Source of the DNA: a virus
Direction: 5' to 3' (one strand)
IMG/VR virus record: IMGVR_UViG_3300017917_000251
Span: 1-34,697 of that record
Length of the DNA: 34,697 nucleotides
Position 1 is the stretch's first letter; each line of letters begins with the position of its first letter. The position numbers were made by a program, and so were the translations under genes. The notes beneath the pieces were generated by a model. The model did not search any database. It was not told where the DNA came from and was given only the letters and a program-made list of their open reading frames with translations. Below, piece after piece: positions 10,459 to 25,141 of the stretch.

Positions 10459-10984
10459 AGAAGATTTAGTCAAGCATCTTGATGAGGTAAATACAGTTGT
10501 ATCTGAATACCTAAAGGGAAACGATCCAACAATTATTTCTAAAGAACTATCAATTCCCAGAACAAGAGTTGTTACTCTTATTAATGAGTGGAAGGCTATG
10601 GCATCTGACAATGCTGCTATTCGTGCTCGTGCAAAAGAGGCATTAGTTGGTGCAGATACCCACTATAGTAAATTGATTAGTAAATCATATGAGGTTATTG
10701 ATGAGGCAACAATGACCAACAATCTTAGTGCAAAGACTGCTGCAATTAAACTTGTCATGGATATTGAATCTAAGAGAATTGACATGCTTCAAAAGGCTGG
10801 ACTACTTGAGAATAAAGAACTTGCTGAAGAGATGGTTGAGATTGAACGCCGTCAAGAAGTTCTTGTAGGAATATTAAGAGACATTGCTTCGGAGCATCCA
10901 GAAGTAAGAGATATCATTATGCAACGCCTATCTGCAATTGCAAGAGAAGGAGAAGTGATTACAGTTGTCCACGATGTTCAATGA
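10448..10984 (+). CDS. Probable terminase small subunit
   Basis: A 178-aa protein directly upstream of, and overlapping, the terminase large subunit. An N-terminal helix-turn-helix (KGNDPTIISKELSIPRTRVVTLI, about 23-45) is followed by long helices able to oligomerise. This is the usual plan of small terminase subunits, which recognise packaging sites and load the motor. Assignment rests on context and fold pattern, since small subunits diverge strongly. Confidence 0.7.
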   Translation: MSTEEDLVKHLDEVNTVVSEYLKGNDPTIISKELSIPRTRVVTLINEWKAMASDNAAIRARAKEALVGADTHYSKLISKSYEVIDEATMTNNLSAKTAAIKLVMDIESKRIDMLQKAGLLENKELAEEMVEIERRQEVLVGILRDIASEHPEVRDIIMQRLSAIAREGEVITVVHDVQ

Positions 10985-12752
10985 TTTTCTAGAAGTACTA
11001 AAAGAAAATCACTTTATTGAAAAGCCTGTAGATGCAAAGACATTTGTTGAGTCTCCAGACTACCTTGGACAGCCACCACTTTCAGATATTCAGTATCAAA
11101 TTGTTGAGGCTATGAGCCAGATCTATCGCAAAGAAGATCTAATTGACCTGCTTGGACAAGCAGAAGGTGAAGCATACTATAAAAAGTTTACAAAAAATGA
11201 GATTATCTTGCAACTTGGCAAGGGTAGCGGTAAGGACTTCGTATCTACAGTAGCGTGTGCATATGTAGTATACAAACTTCTATGTCTAAAAGATCCAGCC
11301 GTTTACTATGGCAAGCCTGCTGGAGATGCTATTGATATTATTAACGTGGCTATTAACGCTCAACAGGCTAAGAATGTTTTCTTTAAAGGTTTTAAGACAA
11401 AGATTGAAAAGTCACCTTGGTTTGCTGGCAAGTATAATCCAAAGGCAGACTCTATTGAGTTTGATAAAGCAATTACAGTTTACTCTGGTCACTCAGAGCG
11501 TGAATCTCATGAGGGTTTGAACTTGTTTATGGCAGTACTTGATGAAATTTCTGGTTTTGCTAGTGAGGTAGGAACTGGTAATGAGCAGGGAAAAACTGCG
11601 GACAATATTTATAAAGCATTCCGTGGTACTGTAGATTCTCGTTTTCCTGACCTTGGTAAGGTTGCACTACTTTCATTCCCCCGCTACCAAGGAGACTTTA
11701 TCTCTCAAAGATATGAGTCTGTTATTGCTGAGAAAGAAACTATTGAGCGTAAGCACACATTCATTATGAATGAAGACCTTCCTCATGATGATCCAGGGAA
11801 TAGGTTTGAAATTTCTTGGGATGAAGATACTATTATTTCATACAAAATTCCAAAGGTATTGGCATTTAAAAGACCAACATGGGAAGTAAATCCTACTCGT
11901 AAGATTGATGATTTTAAGATAGCATTCTATACAGACTTGGCAGATGCTATGATGCGTTTTGCCTGCATGCCTACATATGCCTCTGACGCATTCTTTAAAG
12001 ATAGAACAAAACTTGAAAGGTGCATGACACTTAGAAATCCATTAGACCAATTTAGAAGGTTTGATGAGTCATTTAAACCAGACCCAGATAAGATTTACTA
12101 CCTACATGCTGACCTTGCACAAAAGCATGATAAGTGTGCGGTAGCAATTGCTCACGTAGATAAGTGGGTAAATGTTCAAGTAATTAAAGACTATGAACAG
12201 GTTGCTCCAATGGTAGTAGTAGATGCAGTTGCTTGGTGGGAACCAAGAGCAGAAGGTCCTGTAAACCTATCAGATGTTAAAAACTGGATTATGAATCTTC
12301 GTAGACAAGGTTTTAATATTGGTATGGTTTCTTTTGACCGTTGGCAATCATTTGATATTCAAAATGAATTGCAGGCTGTTGGTATACGAACTGAGACTGT
12401 ATCTGTAGCAAAGAAACATTATGAAGACTTGGCGATGATGATTTATGAAGAGCGTGTTGCTATTCCAATGATTCCATTATTGCTAGAAGAAATGGCTGAG
12501 TTAAAGATTATGAAGGGTAATCGTGTTGATCACCCTAGAAAGAAATCTAAAGACTTGGCTGACGCTGTATCTGGAGCCGTATTTGGGGCTATATCACATA
12601 CCCCTAAGACTACTAATACAGTTATTGAAGTCCATACATGGTCATCATCTTCCGCTCAACTTGCGGAGAAAAGACAATCTATGGTAGAATTAGAACCTAA
12701 GCAAATGACGGACGATGTTCGTGATTTCTTAGATAAATTCAATCTAATATAA
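10965..12752 (+). CDS. terL: Terminase large subunit (DNA-packaging ATPase/nuclease)
   Basis: Packaging motor, 595 aa from the TTG at 10965. The ATPase shows a P-loop LGKGSGKD (about 84-91) and Walker B LFMAVLDEIS (about 186-195). The C-terminal RNase H-like nuclease shows YYLHADLAQKHD with a catalytic Asp, MVSFDRWQS, and a terminal acidic motif DLADAVSGAVFG. Start choice is uncertain: AAGGAG at 10947-10952 is 12 bases from the TTG and 21 from the ATG at 10974 (three codons later). No portal gene follows; the next gene encodes an exported protein. Confidence 0.93.
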   Translation: MSTMFNDFLEVLKENHFIEKPVDAKTFVESPDYLGQPPLSDIQYQIVEAMSQIYRKEDLIDLLGQAEGEAYYKKFTKNEIILQLGKGSGKDFVSTVACAYVVYKLLCLKDPAVYYGKPAGDAIDIINVAINAQQAKNVFFKGFKTKIEKSPWFAGKYNPKADSIEFDKAITVYSGHSERESHEGLNLFMAVLDEISGFASEVGTGNEQGKTADNIYKAFRGTVDSRFPDLGKVALLSFPRYQGDFISQRYESVIAEKETIERKHTFIMNEDLPHDDPGNRFEISWDEDTIISYKIPKVLAFKRPTWEVNPTRKIDDFKIAFYTDLADAMMRFACMPTYASDAFFKDRTKLERCMTLRNPLDQFRRFDESFKPDPDKIYYLHADLAQKHDKCAVAIAHVDKWVNVQVIKDYEQVAPMVVVDAVAWWEPRAEGPVNLSDVKNWIMNLRRQGFNIGMVSFDRWQSFDIQNELQAVGIRTETVSVAKKHYEDLAMMIYEERVAIPMIPLLLEEMAELKIMKGNRVDHPRKKSKDLADAVSGAVFGAISHTPKTTNTVIEVHTWSSSSAQLAEKRQSMVELEPKQMTDDVRDFLDKFNLI

Positions 12753-14521: not shown

Positions 14522-14551
14522 AGGGGAGTCTAGCGATAGGCTCCCCTTTTT
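14522..14551 (+). terminator. Rho-independent terminator after the exported-protein gene
   Basis: Two ten-base arms (14522-14531 and 14538-14547) pair with a single G-U wobble around the loop AGCGAT, followed by TTTTT (14547-14551). It ends transcription of the gene at 12794 just before a new promoter. Confidence 0.9.
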
Positions 14552-14596: not shown

Positions 14597-17047
14597 ATGG
14601 CCCTCATAAGAAATATCCTGCTCCGTAGTGGATTGGTGGGATTTTTAGTAGTGCTTTGGTTGGTATTTGCACCTGGGGAACAAGCACATGCTGATGTAGT
14701 CAGTACTATTCAGGTATCACCTTCAGAGACAAGTATAGCCACAATATCAGTAGATACACCAGTAATCGTACATACTTCAGTAGATAGCGCAACAGCCATA
14801 ATTGAGGTAGCCCAGGCTACAATTACTCAGGCTGAAACTGCAACGGCAGTCATACAAACCCAAGCAACAGCCATTACAAGCCCTACAGAGACCATTACAG
14901 CCACTATCGCACAGGCTCAGACCTCTATTCAACAGGCACAGACAGTAGTAGATAGTGCTACTGTGGCTGTCAATAATGTTATTTCTACACAGAATTACTT
15001 GGCTCAAGCAGTAGAAACTCAAACAGTAAGATCACAAACAGTGGCCTCAGAGTCAGCAACAGTCCTATCTTTGACAGATAGCATGACAGTTCTTAATGGA
15101 CAAATTGATAGTCAAACTGCTTTAGTTAGAACAGATAGCGCTACAGTTCTTAGCCGTCAAGGTGACGTTGCATTAATAGAAAATCAAATTAGACTTCAAA
15201 ATGCTGGAAATCCACAGACTACTGATCTTCCAAAAGATGACGACTGGGCTTTTCTAATGACACTTCCATATGCCCTTCGTCTTGGAGATAGAACATACAC
15301 AGATGTATATGCTGCCACTAATGGTTTGATATCTTTTGGAGAACCTCAAGGGTGGGGAGGAAATGCTCCAGCAGTTTACGTTAACTTCCGTGATTGGTGG
15401 AATGTTGATTCTGATACATACCTTAAATATTCAACAACAATTAATAGTCTTTTAGTTGAATGGAATGTTGTTCCTTATGGATCTAGATCTTCTAATACAT
15501 CAAAAACACAATTAACTTTTGATGCTGATGTTAATCCTATTACTGGAGAATGGATTGCAAATATTTCTTCAGTTGGAATGCCTGGTAATAATACAACAAG
15601 CCCAGTTCAAATTAATAAAATTGTAAATAATCAACTTCAATCATCAACTATTCCAATAACAGTGCAGCAGAACTCTGGAAATACATTTAACTTTACAGCA
15701 AGTATAACAAATCCTAACTATACCGAATATACTCCACCACCAGCAAATAGCAATCTTGCTGCACAACTAACAACTGCACAATCTAATTTATCTACAGCAC
15801 AGTTGGCTTTAACTACAGCACAACAAACCCTTGCTGGATTAATGTCAAATAAAAATGCATTACAGTCTCAAATTACAGCAGCCCAACAAGCATTACAAAC
15901 AGCACAAGCAAATTTAATAACAGCAAATCAACAAGTTGTTTATTGGCAGGGTCAGGTTGAAACAGCGAAATCACAATTAGATTCAGCATTGAGCCTTGTT
16001 AGCCAGTCTATTAATACAATGAATTCAGATGTTAATGCAGCAGACTCTATTGTAGATGCAACTCTTGCTGCAGAGGAATCAGTTAGACAAGCCCAAGCAA
16101 GAGCAGCAGCAGAAGAGGCTGCTAGAATTGCTGCACAACAAGCATATGAAGCAGAGCAGGCTAGAATTGCTGCAGAAGCAGCAGCCGCTAAAGCAGAGGC
16201 AGAAGCCAAGGCAGCAGCAGAGGCTGCAGCAAAAGCAGAGGCAGATAGAATTGCTGCAGAAGAAGCAGCAAAGAAAGCAGAAGCAGATCGTATCAAAGCC
16301 GAAGAAGAAGCAGCAAAAGCCAAGGCAGAGGCAGATAAGGCAGAAGCAGATAAAAAAGCAGCAGAATTAGAGGCAGCCAAAGCAGCAGAAGAAAAAGCAA
16401 AAGCAGAGGCAGAGGCTAAAGCAAAGGCTGAAGAAGATGCTAAAAAGTTAGCAGAACAAAAGGCTGCAGACGAAGCAAAGGCTAAAGCCGAAGCAGAAAA
16501 AGCAAAGGCTGAAGCAGATGCTAAAGCAGCAGAACAAGAAAGATTAGATAAGTTAGCAGAAGAAGCCAAGGTAGGTAAAGAATTATCACAAGAAGAAAAG
16601 GCTGTGATTGTAGAAGCATTAATAGCAGATCTTAAGCCTGGTGAATCCCTATCTGCAGCAGAAGTAAAAGCATCTGGTGTTTCATATGCAGACCTTCCAC
16701 CGTCAACACCAGTAGAACTTCGTACTGATGAAAATGGAAATGCACTTATTATTACTGCAGAAGTTGCTGCTCAAGTTGAACTGGTTCAAGATCCAGGTGC
16801 ATTACTTGCAACAGCATTTACAGATCCAGGAGCAGCATTAGCAGCACTAGGAAGTATTGGAGCAGATATGACTCCAGCAGAAAGAGAAGAAGCAACTAAT
16901 ATGGTAGTTGCAACAGTTGTGGCAACGGGAGCAGCACTAAATGCTGTTGGCCTTGCAACAGGTGGTTCTGCGCCAGCAGGTGGAGGATCATCAGGACCAA
17001 GTGGTGGAACAAACTCAGGCGGTTCAAGGAGGAATGAAAGATGGTAA
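14597..17047 (+). CDS. Large exported coiled-coil protein with TolA-like repeat (fibre-like)
   Basis: An 816-aa protein. Residues 1-34 are a signal peptide or membrane anchor (hydrophobic 11-25, AHADV after it). Residues 35-205 are Gln/Thr/Ala heptad-like helix. Residues about 206-385 form a beta domain with YTDVYAATNGLISFG, reminiscent of nidogen-like domains. About 390-490 is a second coiled coil. About 500-680 is an Ala/Glu/Lys repeat like TolA. A Gly/Ser-rich tail ends in basic residues. GGAAGG directly abuts the ATG, so spacing is poor and the true start is uncertain. It may be a long adhesin or spanning protein. It overlaps the next membrane-protein gene by 7 bases. Confidence 0.75.
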   Translation: MALIRNILLRSGLVGFLVVLWLVFAPGEQAHADVVSTIQVSPSETSIATISVDTPVIVHTSVDSATAIIEVAQATITQAETATAVIQTQATAITSPTETITATIAQAQTSIQQAQTVVDSATVAVNNVISTQNYLAQAVETQTVRSQTVASESATVLSLTDSMTVLNGQIDSQTALVRTDSATVLSRQGDVALIENQIRLQNAGNPQTTDLPKDDDWAFLMTLPYALRLGDRTYTDVYAATNGLISFGEPQGWGGNAPAVYVNFRDWWNVDSDTYLKYSTTINSLLVEWNVVPYGSRSSNTSKTQLTFDADVNPITGEWIANISSVGMPGNNTTSPVQINKIVNNQLQSSTIPITVQQNSGNTFNFTASITNPNYTEYTPPPANSNLAAQLTTAQSNLSTAQLALTTAQQTLAGLMSNKNALQSQITAAQQALQTAQANLITANQQVVYWQGQVETAKSQLDSALSLVSQSINTMNSDVNAADSIVDATLAAEESVRQAQARAAAEEAARIAAQQAYEAEQARIAAEAAAAKAEAEAKAAAEAAAKAEADRIAAEEAAKKAEADRIKAEEEAAKAKAEADKAEADKKAAELEAAKAAEEKAKAEAEAKAKAEEDAKKLAEQKAADEAKAKAEAEKAKAEADAKAAEQERLDKLAEEAKVGKELSQEEKAVIVEALIADLKPGESLSAAEVKASGVSYADLPPSTPVELRTDENGNALIITAEVAAQVELVQDPGALLATAFTDPGAALAALGSIGADMTPAEREEATNMVVATVVATGAALNAVGLATGGSAPAGGGSSGPSGGTNSGGSRRNERW

Positions 17048-17211
17048 AACTAATCAAGGATATTCTTGATCAACAATGGACCCTCCTAGGCATGTTTATT
17101 GCTTGGGTGGTTTTAGACGGATCTGCAAAGACCGTAGTTGGTTATGGAATTTTATTGACAACAATTACTTGGATACTTAGTTATCCAATTAGAAATAGAG
17201 GGGAGGACTAA
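17041..17211 (+). CDS. Small two-helix membrane protein (holin-like)
   Basis: A 56-aa protein with two predicted transmembrane helices (about 13-27 and 31-47), short charged ends and a basic/acidic tail (RNRGED). It begins inside the end of the fibre-like gene and stops one base before the next gene. Size and topology are those of small holins or their partners. Its pairing with the holin-like protein at 17213 suggests a holin/antiholin-type duo, which is inference. Confidence 0.6.
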   Translation: MVKLIKDILDQQWTLLGMFIAWVVLDGSAKTVVGYGILLTTITWILSYPIRNRGED

Positions 17212-17212
17212 A

Positions 17213-17512
17213 ATGAATAGTATCACAAATATTTGGAATATACTTATGCGTATTGTTGCGGTATTTGCAGCAAATGCACTAGCAGTAATTGGTGCTGGAG
17301 CAATCGCAGGTATTTCAGTAGCAAAGGCTATGACAGTTGCTGGACTTAGTGCAGTAGCAGTTGTAGTTGAGAAATTGGCTCGTGCATTTATGGATGACGG
17401 TAAACTTACAAGAGATGAAATCAATGCAGCATTTTCTACCACAGATAAAAATGCAGTAACAGTGCAGGATGCAGCAGTTGAATCACGCAGAAAAAGATCA
17501 AAGACAGCATAA
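17213..17512 (+). CDS. Putative holin-like membrane protein
   Basis: A 99-aa protein with a long hydrophobic N-terminal half (about 9-52, one or two helices rich in Ala, Val and Gly), then MDDGKLTRDEINAAF (about 63-77), an EF-hand-like acidic loop, and a basic C-terminus (RRKRSK). The layout of membrane segment, DGKLT-type motif and charged tail recurs in actinophage proteins annotated as holins. GGGGAGGA lies before the ATG. Confidence 0.6.
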   Translation: MNSITNIWNILMRIVAVFAANALAVIGAGAIAGISVAKAMTVAGLSAVAVVVEKLARAFMDDGKLTRDEINAAFSTTDKNAVTVQDAAVESRRKRSKTA

Positions 17513-17519
17513 TTAAACA

Positions 17520-17561
17520 TGTTTGACCCTGTTTGACAGCCCCTCTTCAGAGTGCTATACT
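17520..17561 (+). promoter_or_regulatory. Consensus sigma-70-type promoter with tandem TGTTTGAC repeats
   Basis: A -35 box TTGACA (17533-17538), a 17-base spacer and a -10 box TATACT (17556-17561, preceded by TGC) form a near-perfect vegetative promoter. TGTTTGAC occurs at 17520-17527 and again at 17530-17537, exactly ten bases (one helical turn) apart, and the second copy overlaps the -35 box. The pair could be a regulator site. It drives the HslV-like gene. Confidence 0.9.
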
Positions 17562-17592
17562 TAGATATAAGCATTTTGGGAGGGGTTTCTGC

Positions 17593-18123
17593 ATGACATG
17601 TATTGCAGTAGTTCGTGATGAAGTAAACAATAAAATTTTTATGGCTGGAGATCGTGGGGCATCAGATGATGGTACTATTCTAGCACTAACTGCACCAAAG
17701 GTGTGGAAGTTAGGTCCTTATCTAATTGGTTATGCTGGTTCAATGGATGGTGAGCGTCTTCGTTATAACTTTAATCCCTATGTACCTGATATTAAAGATA
17801 CTGATAAGTTTATGCAGACTAAGTTTATTAAACAACTTAAGCAGTTCTATACTGATTGGTGGGTAGATACTGGAAAAGATTCAGACTTTGGTTTGATTAT
17901 TGCTGTGCGTGGTCAAATCTATGAGCATAGTTCTGCCGATATGTCTTTATCTAAATACACACTTCCCTATCTTGCAATGGGTTCAGGGGCTGAGTATGCT
18001 TATGGTTATTTAAATGCCACAGAGAAGGCAAAAGATGCAAGAAAACGTGTAGCAGGTGCAGTAAATTCTGCAATTAAATTTAGTCCATCTTGCATGGGTC
18101 CAGTTGACGTAGTAAGCATCTAA
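17593..18123 (+). CDS. HslV/proteasome-beta-like Ntn-hydrolase (threonine peptidase)
   Basis: A 176-aa protein the size of HslV. After Met removal the N-terminus is Thr1 (TCIAVV), the proteasome nucleophile. AGDRG gives Asp19 and TAPKVWKLG gives Lys35. Their 16-residue spacing equals Asp17/Lys33 of HslV. YLIGYAGSMDGERL and AMGSGAEYAYG match HslV strands and the late GSG motif. The ATG at 17593, with GGGAGGGG upstream, exposes the catalytic Thr; a longer in-frame TTG start at 17533 would bury it and sits on the -35 box. No HslU-like ATPase is visible, so it may use a host ATPase, self-assemble, or be a non-proteolytic relative. Confidence 0.85.
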   Translation: MTCIAVVRDEVNNKIFMAGDRGASDDGTILALTAPKVWKLGPYLIGYAGSMDGERLRYNFNPYVPDIKDTDKFMQTKFIKQLKQFYTDWWVDTGKDSDFGLIIAVRGQIYEHSSADMSLSKYTLPYLAMGSGAEYAYGYLNATEKAKDARKRVAGAVNSAIKFSPSCMGPVDVVSI

Positions 18124-18138
18124 GGGTATACTTGTAAT
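18104..18138 (+). promoter_or_regulatory. Promoter for a leaderless transcript
   Basis: TTGACG (18104-18109), a 17-base spacer and TATACT (18127-18132) lie in the end of the HslV-like gene. The ATG at 18139 follows the -10 box by exactly six bases, so transcription should begin at or next to the start codon with no ribosome binding site. Confidence 0.8.
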
Positions 18139-18339
18139 ATGGAAGAAACACTAGTAGATAAAGAGTGGGAAGATTTTGATAAGTGGATTCGTGAGGGTTT
18201 AGAGCGGGGATGGATTACAGAACCGTATTGTAATACTCATGATGGTGGTTATCAATATATGTCAGAAGAAGAAATAGCAGAATGGGATGAGGGTGGAGAC
18301 CCTTGTTGCCATGTCGTCCGATTAATGATAGGAAATTAA
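18139..18339 (+). CDS. Small acidic protein, probably leaderless mRNA
   Basis: A 66-aa, strongly acidic protein rich in Trp, Glu and Asp, with CNTHDGG around residue 31 and PCCHVVRL near the end. The three cysteines and two histidines could bind a metal. The motif YCNTHDG is seen in small actinophage proteins of unknown function. There is no ribosome binding site; a near-consensus promoter places the transcript start at the ATG. The stop is directly followed by the next ATG. Confidence 0.7.
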   Translation: MEETLVDKEWEDFDKWIREGLERGWITEPYCNTHDGGYQYMSEEEIAEWDEGGDPCCHVVRLMIGN

Positions 18340-19011
18340 ATGAAAATAAAGTCAGTAGTAGGAAGTGTATTGTTAATAGTTAGCGCTTTTACATTTGTAT
18401 CAGCACCAGTATCATACGCAGGAGAATGCTCAGCAGCAGATCCATGTCATACATATGCTATGGTAAATGACGCTGGAATTGTAACAAACATTATTGTTTG
18501 TCAACCTTCTGTTTGTGGCTCAGGAACATTTGCTGGAGTGCGAGTAGTTCCACAAGTTGCAGCAGATCCTGTTACACATCAGAGCCAGGCTGGGTATCTT
18601 GCAAATCAAGGAAGTACACCAGTTACAGAACATAATGGGGTTTTTACTGTAACTAATGATCAACCAACTGTAACTTCAAATGTAACACAAAATGTAACTA
18701 ATACAGAAATTGTATCAACATCATTTGAACCAGGAGTAAAGCAATCCTTTACTTTTAACGATACAATTGGTCAGCCAGGTGGTCGTCCAGTTATGAAAAC
18801 TGAACCAATGGATAACTCTATTGGTGCAACATTGTCTTATTCAAAGATTAGAAATTCAGAATCTTCAACCGCTGTTTCTGGAGAATCAATTACATTTGAT
18901 GAAAGGCAAACAGAAGAGGCTGTAGAACTAGAGTTGATGATTCAAGAACTAACAAAGTTACTTGCTAACTGGAATTGGTTTAAAACATCTCTCTTTGGTT
19001 GGTTCCTATAA
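18340..19011 (+). CDS. Exported hypothetical protein
   Basis: A 223-aa protein with a signal peptide (MKIKSVVGSVLLIVSAFTFVS, cleavage near SYA-GEC). Four cysteines follow at about 30, 36, 54 and 59, which could form disulfides outside the cytoplasm. CHTYAMVNDAGIVTNIIVC resembles a repeat found at the start of some phage tail-associated proteins. The middle is Thr/Val/Asn rich, and the C-terminus (about 190-223) is amphipathic and ends in a Trp/Phe-rich stretch. It could be surface-attached or virion-associated; no family is certain. This is the third exported protein in this block. Confidence 0.65.
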   Translation: MKIKSVVGSVLLIVSAFTFVSAPVSYAGECSAADPCHTYAMVNDAGIVTNIIVCQPSVCGSGTFAGVRVVPQVAADPVTHQSQAGYLANQGSTPVTEHNGVFTVTNDQPTVTSNVTQNVTNTEIVSTSFEPGVKQSFTFNDTIGQPGGRPVMKTEPMDNSIGATLSYSKIRNSESSTAVSGESITFDERQTEEAVELELMIQELTKLLANWNWFKTSLFGWFL

Positions 19012-19021
19012 AGTAAGGTTT

Positions 19022-19094
19022 TGGGCTGTAACTCAGTTGGTAGAGTGGCGAACTGTTAATTCGCAAGTCGTAGGATCGAGGCCTACCAGCCCAG
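19022..19094 (+). tRNA. tRNA-Asn (GTT)
   Basis: Cloverleaf with 7-bp acceptor TGGGCTG/CAGCCCA, anticodon stem GCGAA/TTCGC with loop CTGTTAA (anticodon GTT), T arm GTAGG/CCTAC and discriminator G. CCA is not encoded. A TATAAA box at 19007-19012 could start transcription just before it. Confidence 0.95.
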
Positions 19095-19272
19095 CAGTGT
19101 AGTGACTAACACTCGGTTATACCAATCGTGAATAAGGTATGTAGGAACTGTCACGAAAAGACAGACGCCACTAACCTTGGCGCAGTGACAACAGTGTCCA
19201 TGGTTGCTACTACTCGTAGGATATCTAGTATAGAGTCAGTAGGGGGATGCTAGTCACATTCTGCCTACATAA
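19095..19272 (+). ncRNA. Possible structured RNA between tRNA genes
   Basis: This 178-base spacer has no convincing gene but many helices. ATGTAGG (19139-19145) pairs with CCTACAT (19264-19270). Inside lies TGTCAC (19149-19154) with GTGACA (19185-19190), enclosing CGCCA (19166-19170) with TGGCG (19178-19182). GTGACTA (19102-19108) can instead pair with TAGTCAC (19251-19257), which would cross the outer helix. ATACC/GGTAT (19120-19140) gives another hairpin. It is either a phage small RNA, processed with the tRNAs, or a decayed tRNA tract. I do not recognise a known RNA class. Confidence 0.4.
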
Positions 19273-19344
19273 GTCTCCATCGTCTAATGGTTAGGACTCC
19301 AGGTTTTCAACCTGGCAACAGGGGTTCAACTCCCCTTGGAGATA
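19273..19344 (+). tRNA. tRNA-Glu (TTC)
   Basis: Acceptor GTCTCCA/TGGAGAT (one G-U pair), D arm GTCT/GGAC, anticodon stem CCAGG/CCTGG with loop TTTTCAA (anticodon TTC), T arm AGGGG/CCCCT and discriminator A. CCA is not encoded. Confidence 0.94.
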
Positions 19345-19348
19345 CTAT

Positions 19349-19422
19349 GCGGATGTTGCATAATGGTAGTGCCTCTGCCTTCCAAGCAGATAGTGCCAGT
19401 TCAATTCTGGTCATCCGCTCCA
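19349..19422 (+). tRNA. tRNA-Gly (TCC) with encoded CCA
   Basis: Acceptor GCGGATG/CATCCGC, anticodon stem TCTGC/GCAGA with loop CTTCCAA (anticodon TCC), T arm CCAG/CTGG, and discriminator T at 19419 followed by genomic CCA (19420-19422). It is the only tRNA here with CCA in the DNA. Confidence 0.94.
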
Positions 19423-19423
19423 A

Positions 19424-19495
19424 TCTCCCTTCGTCCAACTGGCAGGACTCCAGTTTCTGGCACTGGCAATCTTGGTTCAAATCCAGGGGGGAGAG
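19424..19495 (+). tRNA. tRNA-Gln (CTG)
   Basis: Acceptor TCTCCCT/GGGGAGA (one G-U), D arm GTCC/GGAC, anticodon stem CCAGT/ACTGG with loop TTCTGGC (anticodon CTG), T arm CTTGG/CCAGG and discriminator G. Only one base separates it from the CCA of tRNA-Gly. Confidence 0.9.
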
Positions 19496-19501
19496 CAAAA
19501 G

Positions 19502-19510
19502 TGGTATAAT
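19502..19510 (+). promoter_or_regulatory. Extended -10 promoter for the Hsp20 gene
   Basis: TGGTATAAT: TGn plus perfect TATAAT at 19505-19510, seven bases after tRNA-Gln. No -35 box is recognisable. It gives an untranslated leader of about 50 bases ending in AAAAGGAGAAAA before the ATG at 19568. Confidence 0.7.
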
Positions 19511-19567
19511 AGTATTGTACTGCCTACGGGGGTACATAAATTAACTCGCTGAAAAGGAGAAAATAAA

Positions 19568-19996
19568 ATGAGTTATGTAAATGTAACAACAAACGGCCTT
19601 GGGCCAACATGGTTAAACGATCCATTCTTTATTGGATTTGACAAAATGTTTAACCGTCTAACACATTCAACAAATCAACAATCTGGATTCCCTCCATACA
19701 ATGTTCGTAAGGTAGATGAGGATACTTTTGTTGTAGAACTTGCAGTAGCAGGTTACAATAAAGAATCACTTGACATTACTGAGCATGATGGGGTACTTAC
19801 CATTAAGGGTGAGCGTCCAGAAGATGTTGAAGAATATATCCACAAGGGTATTGCAGGTAGAAAGTTTACTCGTACCTTTACCCTTGCAGAATATATGTAT
19901 GTTGACAGCGCTGATCTAAATGATGGAATGCTTTATGTTATAGTTAAGCGTGACATTCCAGAAGAGAAGAAGCCTAAAACAATCTCAATTAAGTAG
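19568..19996 (+). CDS. Small heat-shock protein, Hsp20/alpha-crystallin family
   Basis: A 142-aa ATP-independent chaperone. The alpha-crystallin core is visible as YNVRKVDEDTFVVELAVAGY, LDITEHDGVLTIKGER, then GIAGRKFTRTFTLAEYMYVDSADLNDGMLYVIVKRDIPEE, ending with the short IxI-type tail ISIK. Phages of several groups carry Hsp20, where it is thought to aid virion assembly or host stress management. It has its own promoter and strong ribosome binding site, and the hairpin at 20011-20091 follows. Confidence 0.93.
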   Translation: MSYVNVTTNGLGPTWLNDPFFIGFDKMFNRLTHSTNQQSGFPPYNVRKVDEDTFVVELAVAGYNKESLDITEHDGVLTIKGERPEDVEEYIHKGIAGRKFTRTFTLAEYMYVDSADLNDGMLYVIVKRDIPEEKKPKTISIK

Positions 19997-20122: not shown

Positions 20123-20398
20123 ATGTCAGAAAAAGAATTGGCAGTTTTAAATAAACAGCAATTCAAACAGCGTCTGAGAGCAATTAAAGAGGCTAGTGGG
20201 TGTGTTGACTGCGGAGAATGTAATCATATAGTTTTAGATTTTGATCACTTGCATGATAAAAAATATAATATATCTAGAATGATTCATGATGGATTTTCGT
20301 GGGCAGCAATTAAAAAAGAAATTTCAAAATGTGAAGTAGTATGTGCAAACTGTCATAGGATAAGAACTTATAACAGATTGACAAGCAAGACTGCTTAA
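20123..20398 (+). CDS. Small HNH-type endonuclease
   Basis: A 91-aa protein with a compact HNH fold signature. CVDCGEC and CEVVCANCH provide two CxxC zinc knuckles; LDFDHLHDKK contains the catalytic D-H; and CANCHRIRTYNRL supplies the final His and basic residues. The whole protein is the nuclease domain with a short N-terminal helix, as in free-standing phage HNH genes. I start at ATG 20123; an in-frame GTG at 20102 lies before the -10 box and is unlikely. It could be a homing-type or packaging-associated nuclease. Confidence 0.85.
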   Translation: MSEKELAVLNKQQFKQRLRAIKEASGCVDCGECNHIVLDFDHLHDKKYNISRMIHDGFSWAAIKKEISKCEVVCANCHRIRTYNRLTSKTA

Positions 20399-20407
20399 TG
20401 CTATAAT
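20378..20407 (+). promoter_or_regulatory. Consensus promoter for the endolysin gene
   Basis: TTGACA (20378-20383), an 18-base spacer, and TGC-TATAAT (box 20402-20407) form a fully consensus promoter. The -35 lies inside the HNH gene. TTTAGGAGG follows, giving a strong ribosome binding site for the ATG at 20435. Confidence 0.92.
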
Positions 20408-20434: not shown

Positions 20435-21226
20435 ATGGCTGTAAAAGGCTCAGTAGATGCAATCATTGAGGTTGCTAAGAAAGAAATTGGAACAATTGAA
20501 GGTCCAAAAGATAATGAAACAAAGTATGGTAAGTGGAGTGGTGTAAACTTTCAACCATGGTGTCAGTCATTTGTTTCTTGGTGTGCTTTTACATCTGGAC
20601 TAGATCCAAAGAAGTACCCTAAGACTGCTTCAACAGTAGCAGCAGCAGACTTCTTTAAGAAGAATAATCGTTGGGCTGATGCTCGTAATGATGATCCAAC
20701 TCCAGGTGACTGGATTTATTTTGATTTCCCAGATGATGGGGTCAATCGTATTTCACATGTAGGTCTTTGCATTAAGAACAATGGCGATGGAACAATCCAA
20801 GTTATTGAAGGAAACACTTCAGGAACTGCAAAGGGAGACCAGCGCAATGGAGGAATGTGTGTAGAGAAGACTCGTGCATATGTAAAGAACAAGAAGGGCA
20901 TTCTCAATGCCGTTGTAGGTTGGGGTCGTCCAGTCTATGCGGGAGAAGAAAATGCTCCGTTGCTATCTAAAGGTGGGGTAGTTGCAGAAGTATCAGCAGC
21001 ACCAACACCTGCAAAGAAGGCACCTGCTAAATCAGCACCAAAACTATTTAAGGTTGGAGCAAAGGGTCCAGGAGTAAAGACAATTCAATCACTGCTTGGT
21101 ATTAAAGCAGATGGTTCGTTTGGTCCAGGAACTGAAAAGGCTGTTAAGGAATTTCAAAAGAAGTCTAATCTTCCAGTAACAGGACAAGTAGATTCAAAAA
21201 CACTTCAGGCACTAAAGGCTAAGTAA
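20435..21226 (+). CDS. Endolysin: CHAP-like peptidase with peptidoglycan-binding domain
   Basis: A 263-aa cell-wall hydrolase for host lysis. The N-terminal CHAP/NlpC-type catalytic domain (about 1-170) shows PWCQSFVSWC with nucleophile C43, ISHVGL with H108, and VIEGNTSG with E125/N127. A flexible Ala/Pro/Lys linker (about 175-200) joins a PG_binding_1 domain (about 200-263: GPGVKTIQSLLGI, DGSFGPGTEKAV, FQKKSNLPVTGQVD). There is no signal peptide, so release needs a holin; candidates are at 17041, 17213 and 26682. Expression should be strong. Confidence 0.93.
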   Translation: MAVKGSVDAIIEVAKKEIGTIEGPKDNETKYGKWSGVNFQPWCQSFVSWCAFTSGLDPKKYPKTASTVAAADFFKKNNRWADARNDDPTPGDWIYFDFPDDGVNRISHVGLCIKNNGDGTIQVIEGNTSGTAKGDQRNGGMCVEKTRAYVKNKKGILNAVVGWGRPVYAGEENAPLLSKGGVVAEVSAAPTPAKKAPAKSAPKLFKVGAKGPGVKTIQSLLGIKADGSFGPGTEKAVKEFQKKSNLPVTGQVDSKTLQALKAK

Positions 21227-23891: not shown

Positions 23892-24317
23892 ATGGAATAT
23901 ATCGTAGTTGTGGGCTTGACAATCCTTTCCACCTGGTCTATAATTAGAATAGTAACAAAGAGTAAGTATAGAAAATCTCATAGAATTATCTATCGTCAAA
24001 GCGATATGCATAAGATGATGAAGAAGTTCTTTACTTATGATTTGCCACAGCAGGAAAGCCCTTCATCTCAGTTGCAAAAGCGCAGGGAAGAGGGTACAAT
24101 TAAAGTGCTAGTTGTAGAAGATCAAGCATACTGGGTAGCCAGTAACATATTTTATGTTGCTAATGTAGAGAATGGTAATCCTATACCAGAGACTGCAAAG
24201 CCAGTAGATACAACTAATATGACAAAAAAAGATGTTGACAAGATGTTATTCATATTGGATAACTTAAGGAGTGGGAACAAAAATGATAGTGGCAGTACAG
24301 GGAACAAACGATTTTAA
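23892..24317 (+). CDS. Membrane-anchored hypothetical protein
   Basis: A 141-aa protein with one N-terminal membrane helix (about 3-20), a basic stretch (KSKYRKSHR), then a soluble domain including EGTIKVLVVEDQAYWV and NIFYVANVENGNPI. The C-terminal 12 or so residues overlap the next gene. The soluble part may be a small beta domain. No catalytic motif is visible. Confidence 0.65.
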   Translation: MEYIVVVGLTILSTWSIIRIVTKSKYRKSHRIIYRQSDMHKMMKKFFTYDLPQQESPSSQLQKRREEGTIKVLVVEDQAYWVASNIFYVANVENGNPIPETAKPVDTTNMTKKDVDKMLFILDNLRSGNKNDSGSTGNKRF

Positions 24318-24856: not shown

Positions 24857-25141
24857 ATGAAGCAGCATCTATGGAAAGACGATGCTCCATGTAAAGATCT
24901 TGATACTAATATATTCTTTGATAGATACGAAGATGAACCTGAGTCTAGGTTTTTGGTTGATGCTCTATGCATGCAGTGCCCATTAGCAAGAAAATGTTTT
25001 GCAAATGGTGTTTCTGGTAAGGAGTGGGGTGTTTGGGGTGGAGTATATCTTGAAGATGGTAAGCCATCTAGAGAGTTTAATAACCATAAAACCAAGGCAG
25101 ACTGGGCAGATACATGGCAAGTTTTAACAATGGATAATTAA
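24857..25141 (+). CDS. whiB: WhiB-family iron-sulfur transcription regulator
   Basis: A 94-aa protein with the four cluster-binding cysteines C12, C38, C41 and C47 (C-x25-C-x2-C-x5-C), then GKEWGVWGGVYL with the hallmark G-[VI]-W-G-G turn, and a positively charged tail. WhiB proteins are restricted to actinobacteria and their phages; several bind the primary sigma factor and either repress or redirect host promoters. This gene is among the strongest evidence for an actinobacterial host. Confidence 0.95.
   Translation: MKQHLWKDDAPCKDLDTNIFFDRYEDEPESRFLVDALCMQCPLARKCFANGVSGKEWGVWGGVYLEDGKPSREFNNHKTKADWADTWQVLTMDN

Follow-up and report, generated by a model that had tools for sequence, protein, structure and literature searches.

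An HslV/BPH-like Ntn hydrolase from a separate actinophage clade, with its promoter inside a predicted leader hairpin

Phage-encoded HslV-like proteins are already known, and what is new here is a separate, abundant actinophage clade of such proteins together with a promoter-hairpin element preceding the gene. The window, which refers to the whole 34,697-nucleotide stretch analysed (IMG/VR record IMGVR_UViG_3300017917_000251), encodes a 176-residue protein (Table 1) that is almost certainly a proteasome-type Ntn hydrolase of the HslV/BPH group, as judged from homology and fold. The combined explanation that accounts best for the data, and which is considered probable on balance, is a hydrolase of the HslV/BPH branch that forms a putative ring and whose translation is gated by the promoter hairpin.

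Table 1. Positions in the window of the protease gene, its leader elements and neighbouring genes.
Feature	Position	Strand	Evidence
Terminase	10965-12752		53.5% identical to Streptomyces phages
Holin-like gene, 99 aa, directly upstream; marks the hairpin slot	17213..17512	+	phrog_443 holin 1e-4 (weak); phrog_26427 'nuclease' 9e-25
-35 box TTGACA, 5' foot of hairpin	17533..17538	+	Promoter scan; conserved in 44-row leader alignment
Hairpin 5' arm, expected to be missing from own-promoter RNA	17538..17559	+	Folding, covariation
Extended -10 TGC-TATACT, apical part of hairpin	17553..17561	+	TG and TATACTT (nearly) invariant in leader alignment
Hairpin 3' arm, contains Shine-Dalgarno	17566..17587	+	Folding, covariation
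Shine-Dalgarno GGGAGGGG, paired in read-through RNA	17578..17585	+	Unpaired probabilities
CDS, proteasome/HslV-like Ntn hydrolase, 176 aa	17593..18123	+	Frame, phrog_1040, profile, fold, N-terminal conservation
Conserved gene for a small acidic protein, 66 aa, usually the following gene	18139..18339	+	Family F7, 50 members among 81 loci
Hsp20 small heat-shock protein	19568..19996	+	PF00011 5e-17
Endolysin (CHAP + PG-binding)	20435..21226	+	Domain matches
WhiB-like regulator, actinobacterial host indicator	24857..25141	+	PF02467 1e-10

The predicted product of the frame begins with MTCIAVV, and the residues of interest, with Met counted, are Thr2, Asp20, Lys36, Gly46 and Gly130-Ser131-Gly132, Thr2 becoming Thr1 if Met is removed. 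An earlier annotation made from the letters alone (the sequence-only reading) had proposed an HslV/proteasome-like peptidase here. Its coordinates, frame and start were correct, the 16-residue spacing of Asp19 and Lys35 (Thr = 1) and the YAGS and GSG motifs were all found in the protein, and the observation is confirmed, with the interpretation as an HslV/proteasome-like peptidase supported by sequence profiles and a predicted structure. A 196-aa ORF starting from TTG 17533 was rejected as spurious, as this TTG is the -35 box and the relatives begin at Met-Thr.

Judged by sequence, the likeness to proteasome/HslV proteins is not due to chance, because phrog_1040 ('peptidase HslV family') matched over the full length with an E-value of 4e-21 and the family profile matched the PDB sequences of BPH (1.4e-13) and HslV (2.5e-12) in nearly full-length alignments with Thr1 placed on Thr1; actinobacterial PrcB scored below both. 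Pfam PF00227 (Proteasome) alone gave 16.1 bits, below its 22.4-bit cut-off, and the curated HslV model TIGR03692 gave 16.5 bits versus a cut-off of 157.75, which leaves the protein outside HslV proper.

AlphaFold2 returned a pLDDT of 36 with the close family A1 only (12 rows, >80% identical), and the addition of distant phage relatives with 24-33% identity, giving a 34-row alignment, led to a confident model (pLDDT 92.5, pTM 0.89). Foldseek ranked BPH at the top and HslV next, and VIA-align gave Z 20.0 to both BPH 5ovt and HslV 6kr1 over ~165 residues, with Z 18.6 for the M. tuberculosis proteasome (PrcB). The model, in which helices 53-59 and 70-88 are both present, is a proteasome-type Ntn sandwich and not one of the other folds that would have spoken against the sequence-only reading.

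Thr comes immediately after the start codon in 361/361 relatives with a readable N-terminus, a number that refers to loci rather than independent genes, some being overlapping copies of one contig; orthologues lacking Thr at the mature N-terminus, named beforehand as a reason to abandon the assignment, are therefore not the case. Lys36, Gly46, Gly130 and Gly132 are invariant across these relatives, and the Asp20 position is occupied by Asp in 334, as in the window protein itself, and by Glu in 27. Two features of group I, i.e., the Ntn sandwich fold and the equivalents of Thr1, Asp17, Lys33 and Gly47, were both found, with the Asp equivalent varying as just described. The replacement of the catalytic-triad Asp by Glu (e.g., in L050, L063 and L074) represents, as far as the sequences tell, some active-site drift, which is counted against the best explanation.

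The gene is under strong purifying selection, with dN/dS values of 0.03-0.14 among relatives. In total, 478 IMG/VR stretches were matched by the close-family patterns, and the clade is common and widespread in WhiB-encoding actinophages. The same patterns had no match in the bacterial genomes searched, and the query L151 matched no viral contig; an A1 scan across 396 Actinomycetota genomes likewise returned no match, although it had no positive control and is uninformative.

Previous work by Fuchs, Alva and Lupas (2021) uncovered 22 new proteasome homologues including PPH and AAH, both of which occur in phages (PMC8665760). AAH was commonest in Actinobacteria, and neither an actinobacteria-specific phage with AAH nor a genomic context hinting at function was found (PMC8665760). 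In our tree, the nearest neighbour of the clade was a putative AAH-like set (support 94/89, the bootstrap not being settled), recognised as such by its taxonomic spread, which takes in Streptomyces, Frankia and Rhizobium among others. On sequence grounds, the protein belongs to a deep, separate actinophage clade of a known kind, whose kinship to AAH is suggested by the tree. The result is a large actinophage clade, apparently related to AAH, with a conserved neighbourhood (holin-like, Hsp20 and endolysin genes) and a conserved control element. AAH-like homologues were also observed on Streptomyces, Frankia, Actinoplanes and rhizobial contigs (L287-L366), with matching forms in IMG/VR contigs.

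The branch of the clade itself has a support of 99/100 and a length of 4.05 changes per column. Such a long branch would suit a proteasome-fold monomer that carries out another reaction, either as a specific processing protease or as a ligase like connectase, which is a precedent for such use of the fold (PMC8665760). This is considered unlikely, given that both helix pairs are present and the connectase-type insertion is absent.

The protein of the HslV/BPH group differs from each of its known counterparts. It shares the group I architecture with AAH (PMC8665760), whereas its identity to the AAH-like set is 24-33% and its GxG motif contains Ser where Cys is usual. PPH, a homologue found in phages and their hosts, is likewise borne by phages without an ATPase neighbour, but with ~140 residues and no helix H2 it does not, as described (PMC8665760), cover the window protein, which has 176 residues and retains H2. 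The PHROG 1040 proteins of Escherichia phage Eps7 and of Vibrio and Aeromonas phages share full-length homology, the Met-Thr start and a stand-alone gene, in contrast to an identity of at most 31% to any annotated phage record that sets the window protein apart as a separate actinophage clade. BPH (PDB 5ovs, 5ovt and 5ovu) and HslV have in common with it the fold (Z 20), Thr1, Asp, Lys and GSG, but the identity is 18-26%, no HslU was found, and the ring of the window protein is putative. PrcB (20S beta) bears a propeptide before Thr1, whereas Thr directly follows the start codon here. BFVD contains a structural relative from Gordonia phage Daredevil, so the fold is present in at least one cultured actinophage.

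Following removal of Met by the host methionine aminopeptidase, Thr1 would be exposed and would work with Asp19 and Lys35, with Gly45 providing the oxyanion hole; the residues are in place, and the chemistry is the one proposed. The product would most likely be a BPH-like closed ring with no need for a dedicated phage ATPase, and the ring might clear unfolded or damaged proteins during infection alongside the phage Hsp20. Confidence in an ATP-independent ring protease is low to moderate. Among the three functions that the sequence-only reading had offered, a putative self-compartmentalised protease fits best, and nothing suggests a toxin/antitoxin-type role.

The third proposal, hijacking of the host 20S proteasome, found no support. 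In its broader form, the protein would bind to an ATPase of the host (Mpa/ARC, ClpX or another one) or become part of the host 20S core and thereby redirect degradation, and this is in line with a fold that is the same as that of PrcB and with actinobacterial hosts, in which a proteasome is usual. It is nevertheless rather improbable, since the profile is closer to BPH and HslV than to actinobacterial PrcB, the propeptide is lacking, and relatives are also carried by phages that infect Salmonella, E. coli, Vibrio and Aeromonas, hosts that are not known to have a 20S proteasome. The earlier statement that no ATPase partner lies in the window held in AAA-type profile searches. PF07724 (AAA_2; ClpX/HslU-type ATPase) had no match in 13 phage records, which may be fragments, and 14/14 control genomes were positive; two sub-threshold AAA matches also appeared. 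A host ATPase is a possible partner of the protease. The protein is small with Thr directly at the start, and should be easy to express.

The near-consensus promoter noted earlier is indeed present (TTGACA-17-TATACT, 11/12 matches, with an extended -10 TG), but the hairpin wrapped around it had been missed. The transcription start would lie at ~17568, as predicted from the -10 box. Positions 17538-17587 are predicted to fold in RNA into a hairpin whose foot holds the -35 box; the extended -10 is close to the tip, and the Shine-Dalgarno falls within the 3' arm. Folding of 17525-17612 gave -30.7 kcal/mol (z -3.1), and none of 200 shuffles was as stable. Comparison of 29 window genes showed the protease leader to be the outlier (z -5.2), with its Shine-Dalgarno region 0.03 unpaired versus at least 0.29 in the others. 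Two further candidate explanations were dropped, an RNA thermometer being disfavoured by a stem of ~-27 kcal/mol, far too stable, and a general promoter cassette or repeated promoter family being ruled out by model R1, which found one strong copy per genome. An Rfam search of 17000-19600 returned tRNAs only.

The pairing is maintained across 41 distinct leaders, in which 94.1% of cells are paired and 22 two-sided changes were counted, compared with 6.0 after shuffling and at most 9 with the partners slid. G-U pairs make up 104/612 pairing cells, an indication of RNA pairing rather than of a DNA palindrome. An operator in the DNA, bound by a promoter-covering repressor, would explain why the inverted repeat exactly spans the -35 to -10 region; it is very unlikely, as the G-U pairs and the varying arm lengths suit RNA pairing and the arms lack a constant motif. 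Confidence in RNA pairing of the leader is high.

In the proposed mechanism, the protease gene would be transcribed from its own host-sigma-type promoter, and the hairpin would hide the Shine-Dalgarno in read-through RNA originating in the holin-like and structural genes upstream. The RNA from its own promoter would be devoid of the 5' arm, so the hairpin could not form and the protein would come from this promoter only. Predicted folding is consistent with this, with the Shine-Dalgarno having an unpaired probability of ~0 in read-through RNA and 0.4-0.8 in own-promoter RNA. Pairing and covariation are observed, while synthesis of the protease from own-promoter RNA rather than from late read-through RNA is what we infer; confidence in translational gating by the leader is moderate. 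Read-through from upstream is assumed, and it would be reduced because of intrinsic terminator-like hairpins at 14522 and 17085. Should the leader function in this way, the phage avoids making protease from read-through RNA, which suggests that timing matters.

Leaders of this type have been reported for T4 e, soc, 49, I-TevI and segB and for Aeh1 mobE, in which the ribosome site is hidden in read-through RNA and free in RNA from an internal promoter (PMC3014915, PMC2988022). The layout of T4 gene e is found here as well, with the Shine-Dalgarno within the hairpin and the 5' arm outside the own transcript if its start is taken from the -10 box. As in the gene e, soc and I-TevI leaders, the gene's own promoter is inside a hairpin, here predicted to mask the Shine-Dalgarno in read-through RNA, whereas the T4 leaders use a T4 late promoter and the present one a host sigma70-type promoter; the sequence is unrelated, the gene is a different one, and the present element belongs to a particular genome slot.

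The chief alternative to gating is transcription termination. In this reading, the hairpin would primarily act as an intrinsic terminator for the operon upstream, which the promoter and Shine-Dalgarno of the next gene just overlap. Its strong, G+C-rich stem and its location where the holin-like transcription unit ends, a place it keeps despite gene insertion, are compatible with this. The U tail is weak, however, with just 4 T among the 8 positions following the stem in 35/44 aligned leaders (commonest TTTCTG), the terminator scan does not list the hairpin while listing the U-tailed one at 14522 in the same phage, and the Shine-Dalgarno of the next gene, inserted genes included, is always in the 3' arm. 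With the weak tail and the constant Shine-Dalgarno counting against it, termination as the main role is somewhat unlikely, and gating is preferred. The listed classic terminator (14522-14547) is located between the Ig-like and coiled-coil genes.

Among 110 distinct leaders, the hairpin was present in 49/49 located directly after the holin-like gene and in 0/53 after the endolysin gene, the remaining ones following inserted genes or lying where a contig ends. The counts are not independent events, since the two large groups probably represent two phage lineages. The hairpin is dispensable for protein function because about half of the relatives have a plain promoter instead. Where a gene of family F35 (L022, L025, L026, L048 and L049) or F70 (L073) lies between the holin-like and protease genes, hairpin and promoter precede the inserted gene. 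The idea that the hairpin is part of the protease gene itself was dropped, as the element follows the slot. It may be, although this is held to be a little short of probable, that a fixed slot in freshwater actinophages carries a hairpin-folded promoter that insulates any inserted gene (protease, F35 or F70) from read-through translation, similar to T4 lysozyme and independently reached. The inserted genes encode unannotated proteins of ~250 aa with no Pfam match, F70 also occurring in L029.

The usual gene order across 81 loci is terminase, Ig-like, coiled-coil, small protein, holin-like, protease, small acidic, secreted/subtilase, Hsp20, HNH and endolysin; in the window, tRNAs precede Hsp20. 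Hsp20 lies at most 3.5 kb downstream in 65/87 distinct loci, and in the sister lineage without the hairpin the endolysin gene is directly upstream of the protease gene. WhiB was found in 13/13 records searched, the window's own included, and is an actinophage marker in the literature (PMC6802176, PMC10202952). Together with the 53.5% identity of the window's terminase to Streptomyces phages, this gives good support for an actinobacterial host, and a freshwater host resembling Nanopelagicales is conjecture.

Several further observations were made in this region. A predicted secreted subtilase (PF00082, 1.8e-7; L057:1428-2390) follows the protease gene in 32/81 loci and alternates with the secreted protein F19, which is the one present in the window. 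Two perfect 12/12 sigma70-type promoters are located at 20378-20407, upstream of the endolysin gene, and at 23916-23944. Streptomyces phages Yaboi and Gilson (~130 kb), which have a related terminase, carry other cargo downstream, including an annotated ClpP-like protease.
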